64,000 nucleotides of DNA, from positions 1 to 64,000 of IMG/VR virus record IMGVR_UViG_3300022562_001757; one strand, written 5' to 3'. Both the position numbers and the translations under genes were made by a program. This document shows, in pieces, positions 1,459 to 10,285 of the stretch (the stretch's first letter is position 1; each line of letters starts with the position of its first letter). The notes below the pieces were generated by a model, which was not told where the DNA came from, ran no database searches, and saw only the letters and a list, made by a program, of their open reading frames with translations. The DNA is from a virus.

Positions 1459-4400
1459 CTAGGCGTAGATGGCCGCGAAGCCACGGTCGCTGAGCTGGCG
1501 GCGGTAGCGGTAGAGGAGGAACCAGAGGGCCTCGGCCGCGGCAGCCGTGTCGAGGTTGTAGCGGCAGAGCACCACCGCGCGCACGGCGTCGGGCTTGTTG
1601 AAGCCCACACCGTCCTTCTCGATGGCGCCGTCGCAGTGGTTCAGCATGTCCTCATGGGCCCGAATGAGGAGCTGCCGGTACTCGGGATCTGAGATGCGCT
1701 CAGGGGCCTTGAGAGGCTTCTGAGAGCCGTTGGACACGCGGGCCTGCTCCTGCTCACAAATGCGGTCCACGAACGTCTGGTGCGCCTTACGCTCGGCCTC
1801 AGCGGCCTTCTGCTGGCGCTCCGACTCGGCCTTGGCCAGCTTCGCCTGGTGAGCGTCGACGCGGGCCTGCCACTCGGCATCCGACTCAGCCATGACCTTG
1901 ACCGGCGGCGGGGGAGGCGTGTAGCTCACCTCGGCCTCGATGGCGCCCTCGATGAGCCGCTTCTTCTGGTCGAGAAGGTCGTACACCCGCTTCTCCAGCG
2001 AATGATCCACCACCAGGCGGATGTACTCCAGGCTGGAAGCGGTCTGGCCGATACGGCGGATGCGGTCCTCAGCCTGAAGAAGTGTACCAGGTACCCATGG
2101 GAGGTCCACGAAAATCATTCGGCTCGCGTGCGTCAGGGTGAGACCCTCGGCACCGGCGGCGATCGTGAGCGCCACGCCCTTGAGCTTGCCGGACTGAAAG
2201 TCGCGAACCACATTCGCGCGATCCTCAGGAGTCATCGAACCGATAATCATGCCCCACCCCTCGCGAGCGCCAAGTGCCTCCACCGGAGCACGGTGCGCGG
2301 AGAAGACCACGATCGGTTCGTCGGCTTCTTCGTAGCTCTCGACCAGCTCGATGAGCGCGGGGATCTTCTCGGAAGCCAGGTCGGCGCGCAGCGAGGAAAA
2401 CATCTCGAATGGGGGCAGCTCGCCAGCTGAGAGGAATGCATCCGACACGTCCTCCAGCGCGTCCAGTTGCTGCCGCAGACCCTTGCTGATATCATTGACC
2501 AGAATGTGCTGGTAGCGCTTTGTGGGCAGCGAGGTGAGCACGTCGTCCTTGCGACGGCGAAGCATGACCCGGCGCATACGCTCGGCGGCCTCAGGCAGCG
2601 GCTTTGGCGCGAAGTCCCAGCCACCCCAGCGATTCTTGTGCCCACCGAAAAGCGTCACGAAGCGGTCGAATTTACCGAACACTTCCCACGCCAGGCCGCC
2701 GGCGTTGAGCGTGCCCCAGAGGTCGAAGGGACGATTCGCCAGCGGGGTACCGGTAAGCAGCCAGGTCGTAGAGGAGACCTTCGCCACCGCGGTGATTTTC
2801 TTGGTGCGCGCCGACTTGTAGTTTTTTACGAAGTGGCAATTGGAAACCAAGACGCCATCGGCTACGTAGTTGTGATTATCGGCTACTTCAAGATTGTAGA
2901 CAAAATCGTCTTGGCTACAGATTCCGGATCCCGAAGTATTTCCTCGTTCCAGAATCTCAATACGGACCACCCGAGATGATCCAGAACGAAGTTTTTCCTT
3001 TTGTCCAGGAAGCGCCACTTTTTTGACCGATGCGTGTTTCCGTCGACCTCGATAGCCGTCTTTGACTCCGGGTGCGCAATGTCCACTTGGTAGAACTTTG
3101 GCAGACTGCTTAGCAGACCCGGATTTATGCACGTAAGAGCCGTCCGTGCCTTTCCGAGTTTTATTGTGTACTCCAGCGCAAACCCAGGGCCAAGTAGATC
3201 GAATAGCGTTTGCTGGGGCATTGTGATTTGCGGCTTTCCGCCGCGCCGCAAAAAACTTGGATTCTCCGTATGAAATTTGGCAGCCGCTGCCATTACCTTG
3301 GAGCGGAAATCTGGGTCCTTGTTTAAGCGCGTCATGCGCTCCGATGCGGCTGAATTGCATCTCCCCTGCATTGGATGGCCAACTTTCTCTAGACGTTGTT
3401 TGAGACGATGACTCAACTCTTCCCGATATGCAGGCTTGGTGCATCTGTAGATCGACCAGCATGACTTCGTGCAGAAGCGCTGTTTTGGCTGATTCGTTTT
3501 GACGATGAAATCCATCCCGCAGCCTGCGCACGCGCGCTTGCACTCCGGTGCCTTGTTTGCAGCGGCTATTTTCGCCTTGACCTCCGGTCTGGAATTGGTG
3601 CTCTTGGCGGCGCATGCTTTGGAACAGAACCTCGCTGTTGATTTTCCTCTTTTCTGTGTCATGAACGTTGTCTGACAATGTTCGCAGACGCGCTCCACAA
3701 CGGAGCGATCCCGCCGCAACGTACCCTTCGTCTGTCCAGATTTTGTGGTTGGATGTGCAGGTGAACTCTCCGTCTTCATGAACCACCTTCACCAGAGAGT
3801 TATGCCTTTTATGCCGCATCCAGCGGGAAACTGGCTTGTACTCCCAGGTCTTTAGCTCTATATTAAAGGAAATAGCGTTGACCTGCAACTTGTTTTCAAC
3901 AATGTCTTGGATTTTCAGTAGCCCACGGTCTGTTAGAATCTCCGTGCTCCCCGGGAAGCACTCGTCCACCACCAGGACCACATCCGAGAAATTCGCGGCT
4001 TCCTTTTCCAGCGGCGCCTGGGTGTAATTCACGATGATGATTTCGCCCGCCTCAGGAGCCCGCGCACGGCCCGCGGTCACGACCGGGGTAAAGTCGGGGC
4101 GCCACTTCAGAGTCTCGTCGCGCCACACGTAGCGAACGGAATTCGGGCAGACCACCAGCACACGAGAGTCAGGCTCCAGTGCCATCAGCACCTGGACCGT
4201 GTTGTGCGTCACGATAAAATCGTCGGTCACGTACAGGTTGTCCTCAGCCGCTACGCGAATGCACTGTGCTGGCTTCTGCCCAATCGCAACGACGTTCACG
4301 ATAGCACGCGTAGGTCCATACTTCCCTTGGCGTCGTAGCGCTTTGACTTTCCTGTCGAGCTTAAACGGGTTGATGCCGTTTGGCATAGTGATGATTAGGC

Positions 4401-5772
4401 GCCACGAGCGATTTCCTGTGCGCGACTCCCCGTTGTAGGTGTAGGTCGGAATCCTCGACGACAATGTTGCAGTGCCACCAAGGCTGCGCACCAAGTGTAG
4501 TACATCCTCTGCCAAGTCTTGGCTAGACGATGAAAATTCAATAGTGGAATTATCGTACGCACTTCCGTCCGTGTCCAGAAGACCGGCCAGAAGTTCGCGG
4601 CGCTGCGCTACCGTTCCGAATAGATAAGGTCTAGGGATAAATTTGTCCGTGGATGAGCAGCCCCACAATGCCAGGTCTCTGAGTGCCTCGGTAATAGGAT
4701 TGGTATTCGAGTCTCTTCCACTAGACAAAGAGAAGTCTACGCAATGATCGTGAGCCGCCAATTGAGACACATGGACGCCATCGGGCAGGCGCTGCGCAAT
4801 GATTTCGGAAATAGCGGCGTCAGACGTGATAGTAGGGGTTCCGGAAATTATAGATCCGTCACCCAACAGTGCACCCAGAACATAGGGATCAATGGGTAGC
4901 GCCTGCGCATTGAACTCCACTGGGTCCACCATGGGAATGAAATGCTTGCAGTTGCCAGCCTTGTCGCGAAGGCCGACTTCCATGATGGCGCGCAATGACA
5001 ATGTTTGGTACCCCGAACCGCGCTTTTTGCGTGTGGGGGTAATGACGTTCCACAAGTGCTCTTCACAGCACTCAGTGCTCGCCCCATCGGAGAAGGTCAC
5101 ACGATAAATCTGCTTCTTGCCTTGTGGATACACGCCAATAACTGGCGTTGGCTGGCCGTTGCTCCCGATAACCAGGTCACCTACCTGGATAGTAAGCATG
5201 AGCTTCCAGCCCTTTGGCGTTAGAATCGCCGCATCCAAGGGTTGCGCTTTTCCGAGGCCCATGTCGTCGGCGAGTAGAGCGCGGTTGTGGAGCGCGAGGA
5301 ACTCGACACCGTCGACCTGGTAGTCGTACAGGCCGGTGTCGGCACAGCGGGCGAGGGCGCGGTCCCGGCGAGGATCGCTGAGGACGCGCAGCTCGTCGTC
5401 CACGTTGAGCTGGAGCTTATCGGCGACTTCGAGCACGCGGGCGCGGTGCTTGGCGTCGGCGGAGCAGGTCCATTGCTTCAGCTCGGGGTTCCAGCGGGCG
5501 CCGGGAAGGCTGCGCAGGAGAGGGAGCGCGTCGCGGTCGAACTCCATGACGATGCCCAACAGGAGGGCGCTAACCTGGATCAGGCGGCGGATGGTCTGCT
5601 GCACACCAACACCCTCGATTCCGTGCGGCTCGGCGCAGCGCGCATCGTTGCACACGCTGAACCACTTACCGTGACTATTTTTCGTCGACCAACCCTGTCC
5701 AACCGCGAGAGTCTTGCCGCAGGTGAGGCACTTCGAGTCGCGCTTGTTTCGGATTTTGAAAGTCGTCGTCAT
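1459..5772 (-). CDS. SNF2-family helicase (SMARCAL1-like) with two inteins
   Basis: A 1,437-residue precursor that would splice to about 714 residues. Order of parts: zinc ribbon (C15xxC18 and C41xxxxC46), a HARP-like segment near residues 75-125 (LPGARWNPELKQW), then SNF2 ATPase motifs: Walker A DDMGLGK-T, Walker B DECH, TGTP, FSAH, AAGAEGLTLT, and QAEDRIRRIGQ. A Glu/Lys-rich coiled segment precedes the C-terminus. Intein 1 splits Walker A after K175; intein 2 splits Walker B between E604 and C979. The precursor therefore cannot be an active ATPase until both splice. The start has GGAGG 9 nt upstream and a TTGACA promoter at 5801-5829. Likely role is DNA remodelling or annealing in phage replication or repair (inferred). 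Confidence 0.93.
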   Translation of the reverse strand: MTTTFKIRNKRDSKCLTCGKTLAVGQGWSTKNSHGKWFSVCNDARCAEPHGIEGVGVQQTIRRLIQVSALLLGIVMEFDRDALPLLRSLPGARWNPELKQWTCSADAKHRARVLEVADKLQLNVDDELRVLSDPRRDRALARCADTGLYDYQVDGVEFLALHNRALLADDMGLGKAQPLDAAILTPKGWKLMLTIQVGDLVIGSNGQPTPVIGVYPQGKKQIYRVTFSDGASTECCEEHLWNVITPTRKKRGSGYQTLSLRAIMEVGLRDKAGNCKHFIPMVDPVEFNAQALPIDPYVLGALLGDGSIISGTPTITSDAAISEIIAQRLPDGVHVSQLAAHDHCVDFSLSSGRDSNTNPITEALRDLALWGCSSTDKFIPRPYLFGTVAQRRELLAGLLDTDGSAYDNSTIEFSSSSQDLAEDVLHLVRSLGGTATLSSRIPTYTYNGESRTGNRSWRLIITMPNGINPFKLDRKVKALRRQGKYGPTRAIVNVVAIGQKPAQCIRVAAEDNLYVTDDFIVTHNTVQVLMALEPDSRVLVVCPNSVRYVWRDETLKWRPDFTPVVTAGRARAPEAGEIIIVNYTQAPLEKEAANFSDVVLVVDECFPGSTEILTDRGLLKIQDIVENKLQVNAISFNIELKTWEYKPVSRWMRHKRHNSLVKVVHEDGEFTCTSNHKIWTDEGYVAAGSLRCGARLRTLSDNVHDTEKRKINSEVLFQSMRRQEHQFQTGGQGENSRCKQGTGVQARVRRLRDGFHRQNESAKTALLHEVMLVDLQMHQACISGRVESSSQTTSRESWPSNAGEMQFSRIGAHDALKQGPRFPLQGNGSGCQISYGESKFFAARRKAANHNAPANAIRSTWPWVCAGVHNKTRKGTDGSYVHKSGSAKQSAKVLPSGHCAPGVKDGYRGRRKHASVKKVALPGQKEKLRSGSSRVVRIEILERGNTSGSGICSQDDFVYNLEVADNHNYVADGVLVSNCHFVKNYKSARTKKITAVAKVSSTTWLLTGTPLANRPFDLWGTLNAGGLAWEVFGKFDRFVTLFGGHKNRWGGWDFAPKPLPEAAERMRRVMLRRRKDDVLTSLPTKRYQHILVNDISKGLRQQLDALEDVSDAFLSAGELPPFEMFSSLRADLASEKIPALIELVESYEEADEPIVVFSAHRAPVEALGAREGWGMIIGSMTPEDRANVVRDFQSGKLKGVALTIAAGAEGLTLTHASRMIFVDLPWVPGTLLQAEDRIRRIGQTASSLEYIRLVVDHSLEKRVYDLLDQKKRLIEGAIEAEVSYTPPPPPVKVMAESDAEWQARVDAHQAKLAKAESERQQKAAEAERKAHQTFVDRICEQEQARVSNGSQKPLKAPERISDPEYRQLLIRAHEDMLNHCDGAIEKDGVGFNKPDAVRAVVLCRYNLDTAAAAEALWFLLYRYRRQLSDRGFAAIYA
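2839..3960 (-). other. Intein 2, in Walker B (DE/CH) of the helicase
   Basis: Residues 605-978 of the precursor (374 aa). It begins CFPGSTEILTDRG, has the block B motif TSNH (673-676), and ends in VYNLEVADNHNYVADGVLVS then N978, before extein C979. Cys1, terminal Asn and Cys+1 fit a class 1 intein. The penultimate residue is Ser977, not the usual His. No LAGLIDADG or in-frame HNH is visible: residues about 700-940 look non-globular because this DNA encodes another protein in the +1 frame (2883-3779). Excision would restore DECH. Confidence 0.9.
2883..3779 (-). CDS. Vsr-like (EDxHD-type) homing endonuclease nested out of frame in intein 2
   Basis: A 298-residue protein read in the +1 frame relative to the helicase and lying wholly within intein 2. 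ATG 3779 has an AAGGTGG ribosome binding site about 4 nt upstream, so internal initiation is plausible. N-terminal zinc fingers: CEHC...FCSKAC and CAGCGMDF...FCTKSCW. The C-terminus has YQVDIAHPESKTAIEVDGNT followed by H and KW, then DHLGWSVLRFWNEEI, like the Vsr/DUF559/EDxHD nuclease fold. Its first codons overlap the intein TSNH block and its last codons overlap the terminal splicing block. Probably the homing nuclease that mobilises this intein (inferred). Confidence 0.85.
   Translation of the reverse strand: MKTESSPAHPTTKSGQTKGTLRRDRSVVERVCEHCQTTFMTQKRGKSTARFCSKACAAKSTNSRPEVKAKIAAANKAPECKRACAGCGMDFIVKTNQPKQRFCTKSCWSIYRCTKPAYREELSHRLKQRLEKVGHPMQGRCNSAASERMTRLNKDPDFRSKVMAAAAKFHTENPSFLRRGGKPQITMPQQTLFDLLGPGFALEYTIKLGKARTALTCINPGLLSSLPKFYQVDIAHPESKTAIEVDGNTHRSKKWRFLDKRKNFVLDHLGWSVLRFWNEEILRDPESVAKTILSTILK
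4201..5247 (-). other. Intein 1, class 3 type with LAGLIDADG nuclease, in Walker A
   Basis: Residues 176-524 (349 aa), inserted in GLGK/T. It starts with Ala (AQPLDAAILTPKGWK) rather than Cys or Ser and ends VTHN before extein T525. The residues of the class 3 WCT triplet are present: W241 (EHLWNV, block B), C504 (AQCIRV, block F) and T522 (VTHN, block G). Class 3 inteins begin splicing with the block F Cys. Two LAGLIDADG-like helices, YVLGALLGDGS (297-307) and LLAGLLDTDGS (394-404), mark an in-frame homing endonuclease. Confidence 0.9.
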
Positions 5773-6878: not shown

Positions 6879-7220
6879 CTAGGATTTTTCTTTCAAGCTG
6901 CGAATGGCATCCATGATGGCCGCGTGCGCTTCGCCGGTTTTATCCAGCGCGTCTGCCTTTCGCGCCAACATTTCCAGCATTTCATTGCGCTCTTGCCGAC
7001 GTCCACTGCCGTAGGTGAATCCTTCCACAGTGTCCGCCGCAGAAAGTAGCGCTCCGTGTGCTGCCTGCACGATACCATCCCAGTCTTTGGCCTTAAGACG
7101 TAGCATTGCCGCAATGTCCTTCTGGGCATCGTGGCGACCACGGCGATAGGCACTTTTGATCTTGGAGTCTTCTGAAACTTGCCGAAGGCTCTTTTTCACA
7201 GGTAGGGCGTTTATTGGCAC
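6879..7220 (-). CDS. Unknown small alpha-helical protein
   Basis: 113 residues, GTG start at 7220 with AAGGA 8 nt upstream. It is basic at the N-terminus (SAYRRGRHDAQKD) and then helical, with Ala/Leu-rich stretches such as EMLEMLARKADALDKTGEAH. No recognised domain. It is preceded by another small helical gene (7273-7560) with a gap of about 50 nt, so the two are probably co-transcribed. Confidence 0.65.
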   Translation of the reverse strand: MPINALPVKKSLRQVSEDSKIKSAYRRGRHDAQKDIAAMLRLKAKDWDGIVQAAHGALLSAADTVEGFTYGSGRRQERNEMLEMLARKADALDKTGEAHAAIMDAIRSLKEKS

Positions 7221-7272
7221 GTCATTTTCCTTTACCGGTTTTGGTCTTCAGATGTCTGCGTCGACAGGCCGC

Positions 7273-7560
7273 TTAGTTTTCTTCACGGCCGACCTCGTTC
7301 AAAGCAGCGATAAGCAAACCGCGAGATTTCTGGTCAAGAGCGGAAATAGCATGATTCAGCCGTTTCCGTATTAGCCGTTCGGCGTGCACCTCGAAGTTTT
7401 CGAGCATCTGGATAGTCTTGAGGACCTCGCGCAGCTGAAGGCGATACGGATGCCGCCACCACGGTTCATTCTTGATGCGAACACGCAATTCGGCAGCTTT
7501 CTCGTGGAGAATGCGGGTTGTTTGGTTGGCGCGCATCAGTATGTCAAGTTGCAGCAGCAT
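7273..7560 (-). CDS. Unknown small basic helical protein
   Basis: 95 residues from ATG 7560 (MLLQLDILMRANQTTRILHE), chosen because AAGGAG lies 10 nt upstream; the frame is open to 7611 but that start has no ribosome binding site and overlaps a tRNA-like T-arm. Sequence is helical and basic (RLQLREVLKTIQMLENFEVH, RLIRKRLNHAI), consistent with a small coiled-coil or nucleic-acid-binding protein. Function unknown. Confidence 0.6.
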   Translation of the reverse strand: MLLQLDILMRANQTTRILHEKAAELRVRIKNEPWWRHPYRLQLREVLKTIQMLENFEVHAERLIRKRLNHAISALDQKSRGLLIAALNEVGREEN

Positions 7561-7604: not shown

Positions 7605-7690
7605 AATCCATGGCCCGACTTGAACGGGCTGGCTTCCAAGCGCACAGACATAGTGCGGCTTTTCGGGCATGGCGCCGCTACCATCGACAG
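7605..7690 (-). other. tRNA-like segment with canonical T-arm (degenerate tRNA?)
   Basis: On the minus strand, a 5-bp T-stem GCCCG/CGGGC encloses TTCAAGT (7629-7613). Upstream, CGCAC and GTGCG pair around a 7-nt loop, but the loop lacks U33. A possible acceptor (GTCGATG with CATGGAT) has one mismatch, and no good D-arm is seen. It is probably a decayed tRNA or unusual tRNA-like RNA at the end of the tRNA cluster. The rest of 7561-7863 shows only a 6-bp hairpin (CAGATA/TATCTG, 7687-7703). Confidence 0.35.
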
Positions 7691-7816: not shown

Positions 7817-7857
7817 TAGACGCACCCAGACTTGAACTGGGAACTTTGTTGTTACAA
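7817..7857 (-). tRNA. tRNA 3' half, Thr(TGT)-like, split from its 5' half
   Basis: Read on the minus strand from U33: T, TGT (anticodon position, 7856-7854), AA, CAACA (39-43), AAGTT (44-48), T-stem CCCAG/CTGGG around TTCAAGT, acceptor strand TGCGTCT, discriminator A at 7817; no encoded CCA. Every element has standard length. The matching acceptor strand AGACGCA lies 0.7 kb away at 8524-8518 beyond an HNH gene. The 5' strand of the anticodon stem (expected TGTTG) is not found, so the tRNA is likely broken unless unusual processing occurs. Confidence 0.6.
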
Positions 7858-7863
7858 TATAGC

Positions 7864-8493
7864 ATGAAAGCAAAACCAATGGTCAAATTAAAGTGCACGC
7901 ATTGCGGAAAACTGTTCCTTCGTAATGCGAGTCATTATCAACAAAACCTAGAGCGGCAGCAACGCATATTCTGCTCACTCGTTTGCCAAAATGAAGGAAA
8001 GAAGAAGGCATGCCAAGAACACGCTTGTAAAAACTGTGGAACGCCTACCAAGAACCCAAAGTTTTGCTCCAGAGCGTGCAGTGCTACCTATAACAACCGT
8101 AGAAGTCCAAAACGCAAGCTCCAGAAGTTGTGCAAAGTTTGCGGAAAAGCTATTAATGCCAAAGTAACCTATTGTTCTGCCTGTTTTAGGCAAAAGTGCC
8201 AGCGTATAGACAATTTGCGCCTGCAAGACGTTCAAGCACACTATGGGTCCAGAAATAGTTACACCACTATGGTTCGCCAACGGGCACGTCATGCTGCTGA
8301 GGCGCTTGGCATTCTGTCCTATTGCAGCGTTTGCGGTTACAGTGCGCATGTGCACTGCTGTCATATCAAACCCGTTAGCGCCTTTCCACTTACCACTAAG
8401 CTCAAAGTAGTTAATAGAGCTAGCAATTTGGTTGGCCTATGCCCAAATCACCATTGGGAATTCGACCACGGGTTGCTAAAATTACCTAAGTAG
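7864..8493 (+). CDS. HNH endonuclease with zinc fingers, inserted in a tRNA gene
   Basis: 210 residues from ATG 7864, on the strand opposite to its neighbours. N-terminal CxxC zinc-finger modules: CTHCGKLF...FCSLVC, CKNCGTP...FCSRAC, CKVCGK...YCSAC. C-terminal HNH: CSVCGYSAHVHCCHIKPVSA...NLVGLCPNHHWEFDHG. The finger pattern resembles that of the intein-nested nuclease at 2883-3779 although the nuclease domains differ. It lies exactly between two halves of one tRNA gene and looks more AT-rich than its surroundings, consistent with a mobile homing element. No good ribosome binding site was seen; the frame is open from 7846. Confidence 0.88.
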   Translation: MKAKPMVKLKCTHCGKLFLRNASHYQQNLERQQRIFCSLVCQNEGKKKACQEHACKNCGTPTKNPKFCSRACSATYNNRRSPKRKLQKLCKVCGKAINAKVTYCSACFRQKCQRIDNLRLQDVQAHYGSRNSYTTMVRQRARHAAEALGILSYCSVCGYSAHVHCCHIKPVSAFPLTTKLKVVNRASNLVGLCPNHHWEFDHGLLKLPK

Positions 8494-8498
8494 GGCCG

Positions 8499-8524
8499 GC
8501 GCTCTACCATTGAGCTATGCGTCT
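8499..8524 (-). tRNA. tRNA 5' half (acceptor and D-arm), split
   Basis: Minus strand: acceptor AGACGCA (8524-8518), TA, D-stem GCTC, loop AATGGTA, GAGC, then G26. All lengths are canonical. The acceptor pairs 7/7 with TGCGTCT at 7824-7818. After position 26 the sequence continues CCGGCCCTACTT, which runs into the complement of the HNH gene end and does not pair with the 3' half's CAACA. Confidence 0.6.
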
Positions 8525-9000: not shown

Positions 9001-9073
9001 TGGAGGATATCGGGATCGAACCGATGACCCCCGCCGTGCAAGGGCGGTGCTCTCCCAGCTGAGCTAATCCCCC
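9001..9073 (-). tRNA. tRNA-Ala (TGC)
   Basis: 73 nt. Acceptor GGGGGAT pairs with ATCCTCC including the G3-U70 wobble that marks tRNA-Ala; D-stem GCTC/GAGC; anticodon stem CCGCC/GGCGG around CTTGCAC (anticodon TGC); T-arm ATCGG/CCGAT around TTCGATC; discriminator A. CCA is not encoded. It lies 4 nt from the next tRNA. Confidence 0.95.
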
Positions 9074-9077
9074 GGGA

Positions 9078-9149
9078 TAGCGGCGGTCGGAATTGAACCG
9101 ACGTAGGCAGGCGTATGAGACCCGCTCGGAAGCCAGCATCCTCACCGCT
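9078..9149 (-). tRNA. tRNA with CAT anticodon (Met or Ile2)
   Basis: 72 nt. Acceptor AGCGGTG pairs with CGCCGCT, discriminator A; T-arm GTCGG/CCGAC around TTCAATT; anticodon loop CTCATAC, with stem CGGGT/GCCTG that includes two wobble pairs. The D-arm is unusual: AGGATGCTGGCTTCCGAG pairs only as GGA/TCC. CAT could read AUG, or AUA after lysidine modification. It is first in the tRNA transcript. Confidence 0.8.
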
Positions 9150-9197: not shown

Positions 9198-9962
9198 TCA
9201 GTCGGTCTTATCTTTAGCGTCTACCACGCTAGCTTCCAGCTGCACTGCTGGTACTTTGGCGAGCGGTTTCGGCACCACGGTGGCCGCCAATGGCATTGGC
9301 CTAGGTGCTACTGCTGCTGGCCTAGGTGCTACTGGCTGAGTATCCCTTGCGATTTTCAAAGCGTGCCGCCCATCTACAGAAATGGCAGCAGACTTGGAAA
9401 TCTCATTGAAGATCACCAGTCCGCGATCATGTAGTGTTTTAGCCACATAGATGTTTGGCCCGCGCAAGAAAAGGCGCTTGCTAGTCGAAAGGCTTTCTAG
9501 CAGCTGCCGTTGCGGAACAGTAAGTCTTGGCATCCAGGAATCGGCAGATTTCTCATCCTCGTCGTCGTCCTCGTCGTCGTCCTCGTCGTCCTCATCCTCG
9601 TCGTCGTCTAGATCGTCGTCGTCGTCGTCCTCATCCTCGTCGTCGTCTAGATCGTCCTCGTCGTCATCTTCATCGTCGTCTAGATCGTCCTCATCCTCGT
9701 CATCATCCTCGTCATCATCCTCGTCATCATCCTCGTCATCATCCTCCTCGCCCCAGTCGTCGTCGGCGCACCCACGTCCCCATTCATGGAAGTTGTGGCA
9801 CAAATTTACATATCCGGCATCGGCTACCGCTTCTGCGAGGTCCTCCCACAGATTACGGATGGCTGGTGGAATTTTCTTGGGGTTCGCCAGCACCAATGCG
9901 ATGGCGTTGTTGATGATGGAAAGGTCCGCTGACAACCTCGTTGGACGATAGACTTTTGCCAT
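9198..9962 (-). CDS. Paralogue family member with extreme Asp/Glu tract
   Basis: 254 residues from ATG 9962 (MAKVYRPTRLSADLSIINNA), with GGAGA 8-9 nt upstream. N-terminal helical module (INNAIALVLANPKKIPPAIR...AVADAGYV), then about 65 residues made almost only of Asp, Glu and Leu, then a module with LTVPQRQLLESL and FLRGPNIYVAKTLHDRGLVI, then a Pro/Ala/Val-rich tail. Both modules recur in 10322-11083 and 11122-11598. The second module looks like a small winged-helix-type domain (inferred). The acidic tract might mimic DNA or bind basic proteins. Confidence 0.75.
   Translation of the reverse strand: MAKVYRPTRLSADLSIINNAIALVLANPKKIPPAIRNLWEDLAEAVADAGYVNLCHNFHEWGRGCADDDWGEEDDDEDDDEDDDEDDDEDEDDLDDDEDDDEDDLDDDEDEDDDDDDLDDDEDEDDEDDDEDDDEDEKSADSWMPRLTVPQRQLLESLSTSKRLFLRGPNIYVAKTLHDRGLVIFNEISKSAAISVDGRHALKIARDTQPVAPRPAAVAPRPMPLAATVVPKPLAKVPAVQLEASVVDAKDKTD
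9553..9753 (-). repeat. Trinucleotide-rich low-complexity tract (poly Asp/Glu)
   Basis: About 200 bp made of GAC, GAT and GAG codons on the minus strand, with four short Asp-Leu-Asp interruptions (CTAGATC-like). The imperfect larger unit is about 36-57 bp. It encodes the acidic stretch of the 9198-9962 protein and probably expands and contracts by slippage. Confidence 0.9.
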
Positions 9963-9988
9963 TTTTGGTCTCTCCGTTGTGCCGTCTG

Positions 9989-10285
9989 CTACTTCTTGCT
10001 GTGGCGTGCGCGGTGGTCTATGCACACATTGCAGCGGCACTCTACCTCGTCCTCAACCTTGATAGAAGTAAAAATCTCCACGCTACCGAAAAATTCTCCG
10101 GCCATCCCGCCTTCACCAAATAATGATCCATCGACCGGTGGAGCATACATGCTACGAATGACCTTCAATGGACGGTAAAACGCTCGCTGAGATGTCTGCT
10201 GGCAGGCTTCTTGCGCAGACTGTGCCTCTACGTACACCGGAATCAGCGGCCCGATTGAGCTGTGAAATACTACTTTGTAGTGCAT
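9989..10285 (-). CDS. Unknown 98-aa protein
   Basis: Begins MHYKVVFHSSIGPLIPVYVE at ATG 10285, with a beta-strand-rich N-terminus, AQSAQEACQQTSQRAFYRPL helix and a C-terminal CRCNVC. The ribosome binding site is weak. It sits between two members of the acidic/winged-module paralogue family but shares neither module. Function unknown. Confidence 0.6.
   Translation of the reverse strand: MHYKVVFHSSIGPLIPVYVEAQSAQEACQQTSQRAFYRPLKVIRSMYAPPVDGSLFGEGGMAGEFFGSVEIFTSIKVEDEVECRCNVCIDHRARHSKK

Follow-up and report, generated by a model that had tools for sequence, protein, structure and literature searches.

A probable intron-less insertion of an HNH homing gene into a phage tRNA gene, and the rearranged tRNAs that accompany its relatives

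Homing endonucleases that reside in RNA genes are expected to lie inside self-splicing introns. Group I introns occupying the anticodon loops of phage and bacterial tRNA genes sometimes carry a homing endonuclease gene (PMC3984707), and free-standing endonuclease genes are known from phage tRNA clusters as well, SegB of phage T4 being a case in point: it lies between tRNA-Arg and tRNA-Ile and, in mixed infections, biases inheritance towards the tRNA region to which it belongs (PMC2988022). SegB is a GIY-YIG rather than an HNH enzyme, it cuts and sits in a tRNA intergenic region, and reports of it mention neither a split tRNA gene nor a substitute tRNA brought along (PMC2988022). The MobE-type HNH homing endonucleases of T4-like phages are likewise free-standing and sit beside the genes they target, which are protein-coding (PMC2988022). 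A proposal cited in PMC7589089 holds that HNH genes shape phage tRNA sets. The open-access papers searched yielded no account of tRNA genes split by HNH genes, with or without a replacement inside.

Here, I describe a locus that resembles each of these systems in part. As with SegB, the endonuclease gene stands free among phage tRNA genes; with the MobE-type enzymes the locus shares an HNH motif and a position at the target gene, and with tRNA group I introns the insertion into an anticodon loop. Unlike these introns, however, the insert has neither ribozyme nor splicing, and the tRNA gene appears to be lost rather than spared; unlike the MobE-type enzymes, the protein has a different Cys-rich N-terminal region, and its gene lies antisense in an RNA gene. 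The stretch analysed (hereafter the window) comprises positions 1-64,000 of the IMG/VR record IMGVR_UViG_3300022562_001757, which is 82,653 bases long. The best explanation of the locus, to which a probability of about 0.83 is given, is that a free-standing HNH homing gene entered a phage tRNA gene in antisense orientation, with no intron around it, at the anticodon loop between positions 32 and 33. Searches with the exact tRNA halves and two neighbouring genes found no empty-site relative of the window, and the insertion event is therefore deduced from the anatomy of the locus; a search of viral contigs likewise yielded no exact copy of the 5' or the 3' half.

The 5' part of the tRNA (positions 1-32) occupies 8494..8524 on the minus strand and runs from the acceptor strand AGACGCA (8524-8518) and T8-A9 (8517-8516) through a canonical D-arm (stem GCTC/GAGC, loop AATGGTA, 8515-8501) and base 26 (8500) to CCGGC (8499-8495) and C32 (8494), immediately followed by the stop codon of the HNH gene (antisense CTA, 8493-8491). 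At the far junction, the ATG of the HNH gene (7864) is separated by the six bases GCTATA from U33 (7857), with which the 3' part begins (positions 33-73; 7817..7857, minus strand): TGT at 7856-7854, A37 and A38, CAACA at 7851-7847, AAGTT at 7846-7842, the T-arm CCCAG TTCAAGT CTGGG at 7841-7825 with five of five stem pairs, the acceptor strand TGCGTCT at 7824-7818 and A73 at 7817. The two parts are complete and do not overlap. The insertion between them (7858..8493) measures about 636 bp, of which only 6 bp lie outside the HNH open reading frame, as expected from the earlier note, in which the gap was filled by an opposite-strand HNH gene of 630 bp. The pairing of AGACGCA with TGCGTCT over 7/7 positions, claimed in the same note, holds with its coordinates, and the 3' piece could be confirmed base by base; as for the 5' piece, the standard D-arm stands, yet the claim that it ends at position 26 and lacks an anticodon-stem strand does not, for bases 26-32 exist and it is their CCGGC that fails to pair. 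When the window was scanned for canonical 5' halves that match a canonical T-arm half in 7/7 Watson-Crick acceptor pairs, both lying outside intact tRNAs, this locus (7817-8524) was the only pair recovered, compared with none in 150 Markov-random 64-kb strands. ARAGORN, run with introns allowed and thresholds lowered, returned noise only and did not recover the split gene. No complete tRNA with the same acceptor occurs elsewhere among the five tRNA matches of the record, at the loci read, and the split-gene reading of the earlier note keeps its footing in this respect.

The inserted gene (7864..8493, plus strand, 630 bp, 209 aa) has its own start and stop and lies inside neither an intron nor an intein. 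Its product combines an N-terminal Cys-rich, zinc-finger-like region with a C-terminal HNH motif (NHHWEFDH), and it matches Pfam HNH_2 above the cut-off (E 2.7e-7) and the HNH family phrog_1271 (E 7e-13). The Cys, His and Asn columns are invariant among 18 relatives, and the AlphaFold2 model reaches a mean pLDDT of 92.6; a fold search of the PDB with this model gave no match under E 0.001. The protein is predicted to cut the DNA of tRNA genes.

Joined directly at 32|33, the two tRNA parts would form an anticodon stem of CCGGC against CAACA, with 0/5 pairs; because of this the split tRNA is most likely non-functional and may be chimeric, with its halves from two tRNAs; the putative Thr specificity is read only from the TGT of the 3' piece. 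As it stands, the gene cannot, as judged from its bases, yield a tRNA by simple excision. The anticodon loop is a classic site of group I introns, one of which resides in a tRNA of the related locus L017, and this lends some appeal to the idea that a self-splicing intron, group I or other, bearing an antisense open reading frame is removed from a functional window tRNA; but the insert yielded neither a group I intron (Rfam RF00028) nor any other Rfam RNA at a limit as loose as E = 10, in the same search that detected, as a positive control, the intron between the tRNA halves of L017:5548-5768(-) at E 2.4e-5. Moreover, the insert is nearly all open reading frame, its RNA fold shows no excess of structure over shuffles (z = -0.34), and the exons lack an anticodon stem and hence a complete tRNA, so that the self-splicing reading is rejected as highly improbable, and the remark in the earlier note that there was little room for a group I core is borne out. 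Processing of a split or intron-bearing tRNA by a splicing endonuclease was rejected likewise, for the joined product has no cloverleaf, and so was an integrase element at a tRNA 3' end, given that the insert consists of the HNH gene only and that halves 1-32 and 33-73 contain no duplicated segment.

That both halves are undamaged except for the anticodon stem might suggest that they are assembled in trans, or by some unknown route and possibly with bases of the insert, into a functional tRNA. Against this, neither junction is flanked by bases from which the 5' anticodon strand (TGTTG) could be restored, and a recent insertion explains the undamaged halves equally well; such an assembly is hardly credible, and the unusual processing route which had been considered in the earlier note gains no support. 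Destruction of the tRNA by the insertion, its other option, is what the missing intron, the ordinary fold and the mismatched stem speak for. Nor is it probable that two unrelated tRNA fragments flank the HNH gene by chance: the anticodon-stem strands do not match, and tRNA fragments do occur in these arrays (7613-7639), but the Watson-Crick acceptors, the complementary extents of the two parts, the outcome of the random strands and the split genes of relatives all argue against it.

The tRNA gene neighbours are an intact tRNA-Ala(TGC) at 9001..9073, on the minus strand as is the split tRNA, and a weak tRNA-Met-like gene at 9078..9149, also on the minus strand, which scores 27.8 bits with Rfam, just below the 29-bit cut-off. 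Neither a rearranged (permuted) tRNA nor any other rescue tRNA was found in the window or in the rest of the record, the best score of the rearranged-tRNA search in the window being 15.8 bits, at the Met-like gene. The window HNH gene lies inside a tRNA gene, as it would in a cut-and-replace cassette (see below), and no tRNA lies between the split halves, where such a cassette would carry its substitute. An arm-like stretch with a TGT loop at 7697-7617(-) was rejected (fold z -0.56, no U33, match in the T-arm only), and GCCCG TTCAAGT CGGGC at 7613-7639(-), a T-arm-like fragment that stands alone downstream of the split gene, is possibly another tRNA relic. Farther off, the window holds an open reading frame for an SNF2-type helicase (1459-5772, minus strand), seemingly with two intein-like insertions, as judged from the translation only, and another with long Asp/Glu runs (9198-10040, minus strand).

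Relatives of the HNH protein, with 30-50% identity, were gathered from viral contigs, bacterial genomes and cultured phages (loci L006 and so on), and nearly all of them reside within tRNA clusters. In 33/50 distinct viral loci the HNH gene lies at most 50 nt from a tRNA, versus 84/274 for the other open reading frames of the same loci (Fisher p 4e-6), a moderate enrichment in tRNA-dense loci by a statistic that ignores kinship. In the Hymenobacter species checked, the HNH gene is found about 50-60 nt beyond the 3' end of a tRNA-Arg(CCT), in convergent orientation, and this arrangement (L037-L040, L042, L044-L046) apparently marks a conserved chromosomal site. Two other loci show tRNA-Met or initiator-like remnants beside the HNH gene, with D-arm and anticodon arm deleted and acceptor and T-arm kept (L016:4806-4862(-) and L018:4818-4867(-)), and the large phage of L017 has two group I introns near its HNH gene (5548-5768(-) and 7192-7396(-)), one of them within a tRNA gene.

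Insertion into tRNA genes is itself documented among these relatives by a before-and-after pair, in which no intron is involved; intron-less homing into tRNA genes had been called notable, should it occur, in the earlier note. L013 and L234 come from related phages with 85-98% nucleotide identity in matching stretches; the tRNA-Arg(TCT) that is intact in the former is broken in the latter one base past the anticodon loop, with the loss of 1 nt, and the gap holds a second HNH gene together with a canonical tRNA-Arg(TCT), the first HNH gene being reduced to 20 + 15 codons. The whole arrangement, L234:2362-3190(-), has the form of a nested invasion, in which the tRNA-Arg(TCT) of an earlier element was split by a second HNH element with its own tRNA-Arg. 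At L247, L006 and L015 canonical tRNAs are split likewise, with 7/7 acceptor pairs if G-U is allowed and a complete, different tRNA-Arg inside. At L048 and L215, whose tRNAs are unrelated to that of the window, the junction is again 32|33, with the canonical 5' half giving way to the HNH stop codon at position 33 as in the window, and at L032 the 5' half ends near position 26; no 3' halves for L048, L032 and L215 were found in the DNA of those loci. Insertions thus recur in the stretch from the D-stem to the anticodon loop (window, L006, L015, L032, L048, L215, L234 and L247), and in the relatives the invading element usually comes with a further tRNA of identical specificity.

Presence and absence of the HNH gene between near-identical genomes occurs in relatives (Ep030, TomSawyer, iF6, FelixO1-like phages and L013/L234), including cultured phages. 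The empty site of kolesnikviruses holds a canonical tRNA-Arg(TCT), in place of which Erwinia phage Ep030, whose flanks are 95-99% identical to theirs, has an odd tRNA-Arg(TCT) and an HNH gene; this HNH gene (L051:2998-3442) contains an early in-frame TAG, due either to a broken gene or to a sequencing error in an unverified record. The same swap of tRNA-Arg, with another HNH gene, distinguishes FelixO1 from Salmonella phage Sl26 (flanks about 96% and 87%). The FelixO1 tRNA in question is an unannotated rearranged tRNA-Arg(TCT) at L066:1813-1891 (NC_005282.1 25951-26029), where relatives have the canonical one; the genome paper expected an Arg[AGA] tRNA yet found none, and saw neither introns nor inteins (PMC3185647). 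Streptomyces phage TomSawyer has an HNH gene and a canonical tRNA-Ile(GAT) where an odd tRNA-Ile(GAT), which is unannotated, stands alone in Birchlyn (flanks 99% identical), and some 20 further records matching these flanks suggest the same arrangement. In Enterococcus phage iF6 an HNH gene accompanies a tRNA-Thr(TGT), and in EFDG1 a different tRNA-Thr(TGT) stands there, beside an ATPase gene. In these four cultured phages (Ep030, FelixO1, TomSawyer and iF6) the swapped unit consists of exactly an HNH gene plus one tRNA whose anticodon is unchanged, and the flanks on either side are highly similar. FelixO1-like phages further show an HNH gene directly 5' of a tRNA-Ile (L049:3471-3546, L060:877-951), two bases of which differ between HNH-bearing and HNH-free examples; the HNH-type stretch is matched at 99% or more by 7 records and at 95-99% by 40, as counted on that stretch by itself.

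Many of the substitute tRNAs carried with HNH genes appear, from their base order and pairing, to belong to a rearranged class, which is apparently undescribed so far; no account of a rearranged phage tRNA was found in the open-access papers searched. In these tRNAs the order is acceptor, UA, 5' strand of the D-stem, anticodon arm, 3' strand of the D-stem, a D-loop-like UAAnUGGA, T-arm and acceptor, that is, the anticodon arm separates the two strands of the D-stem, and the D-loop has moved to a position before the T-arm. Examples are L006:4918-4994(-), L013:4902-4977(-), L051:2903-2981(+), L062:903-979(+) and L066:1813-1891(+), and 47 further pattern matches occur in L068-L147 (alignment A6); the anticodons are mostly Arg YCU, with Ile and others as well. 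Among 41 distinct sequences, 97.9% of the cells pair, and the covariation score is 0.915, whereas shuffles reach 0.233 and slid structures no more than 0.17, this alignment having been fitted to a model, and the first one, of five sequences, having been made by MAFFT alone with the structure drawn from those sequences. All three rearranged D-stem pairs show changes on both sides. The dedicated model gives the rearranged tRNAs 40-91 bits, as against about 29-39 bits or no match, in those examined, with the Rfam tRNA model. Only 8 of the 47 pattern-found tRNAs are near an HNH gene of the two profiled types, and the class is therefore wider than the HNH family; to judge by these matches it is widespread in phages and mostly unannotated. 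A rearranged tRNA beside an HNH gene is also present at L036 and L047, from two phylum-level MAGs.

From these arrangements I infer cutting, co-conversion, immunity of the substitute and loss of function. The HNH protein would cut tRNA genes around the stretch from the D-stem to the anticodon loop, and repair of the break from an HNH-carrying genome would copy the HNH gene in, thereby spreading it. DNA flanking the donor tRNA would come along by co-conversion, so that part of the 3' piece possibly derives from another tRNA, which would explain the mismatched anticodon strands of the window. A travelling tRNA of the same specificity and different structure would make up for the lost function and itself escape cutting, and structurally different substitutes could let successive elements displace each other, as at L234. 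In the window copy the substitute would never have been brought, or would have been lost, and the tRNA would be non-functional because this copy, unlike most relatives, has none. Phage tRNAs are usually dispensable.

On balance it seems slightly more probable than not that the window gene belongs to a natural cut-and-replace system. The HNH genes of such a system would target tRNA genes for homing, mostly those for tRNA-Arg YCU, and would bring a tRNA of matching specificity but different structure, presumably uncuttable and in part of the rearranged class; the window copy would have lost, or would lack, its substitute. It is rather unlikely that the HNH genes are instead harmless gap-fillers of tRNA clusters, with the swaps due to ordinary recombination of tRNA arrays and no logic of cutting and replacing behind them. 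Phage tRNA clusters are indeed hotspots of exchange, many of the HNH genes merely adjoin an intact tRNA, the FelixO1-like tRNA-Ile differs by two base changes only, and the rearranged tRNAs are mostly far from a profiled HNH gene; a harmless accumulation would not, however, be expected to place insertions inside tRNA genes, repeatedly in the same stretch at eight loci, nor to exchange in four cultured phages exactly one HNH gene plus one same-anticodon tRNA between similar flanks.

If the cut-and-replace system exists, it would explain the fast turnover of phage tRNA sets as well as tRNAs that are expected but seemingly missing, such as that for AGA in FelixO1. The HNH family would enter tRNA genes without an intron and, in the relatives, a replacement tRNA would pay for the damage; the window locus in turn leads to a class of rearranged tRNAs present in cultured phages.

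To sum up, a natural parallel is offered by FelixO1, whose HNH genes each abut a tRNA, one of them standing beside the rearranged tRNA-Arg(TCT) that replaces the tRNA-Arg of its relatives (PMC3185647); there the tRNA is replaced, whereas in the window it is left split. A parallel in logic is found in the engineered home-and-rescue and cleave-and-rescue drives, which, as is proposed for the relatives, cut a target and carry a cut-resistant substitute; these drives are synthetic, eukaryotic and CRISPR-based (PMC7968924), and the window copy comes without the rescue. If the proposal is true, the relatives would represent a natural counterpart of such drives. As an inserted homing gene the window feature is ordinary, in its place it is unusual, and it is a pointer to greater novelty in its relatives.
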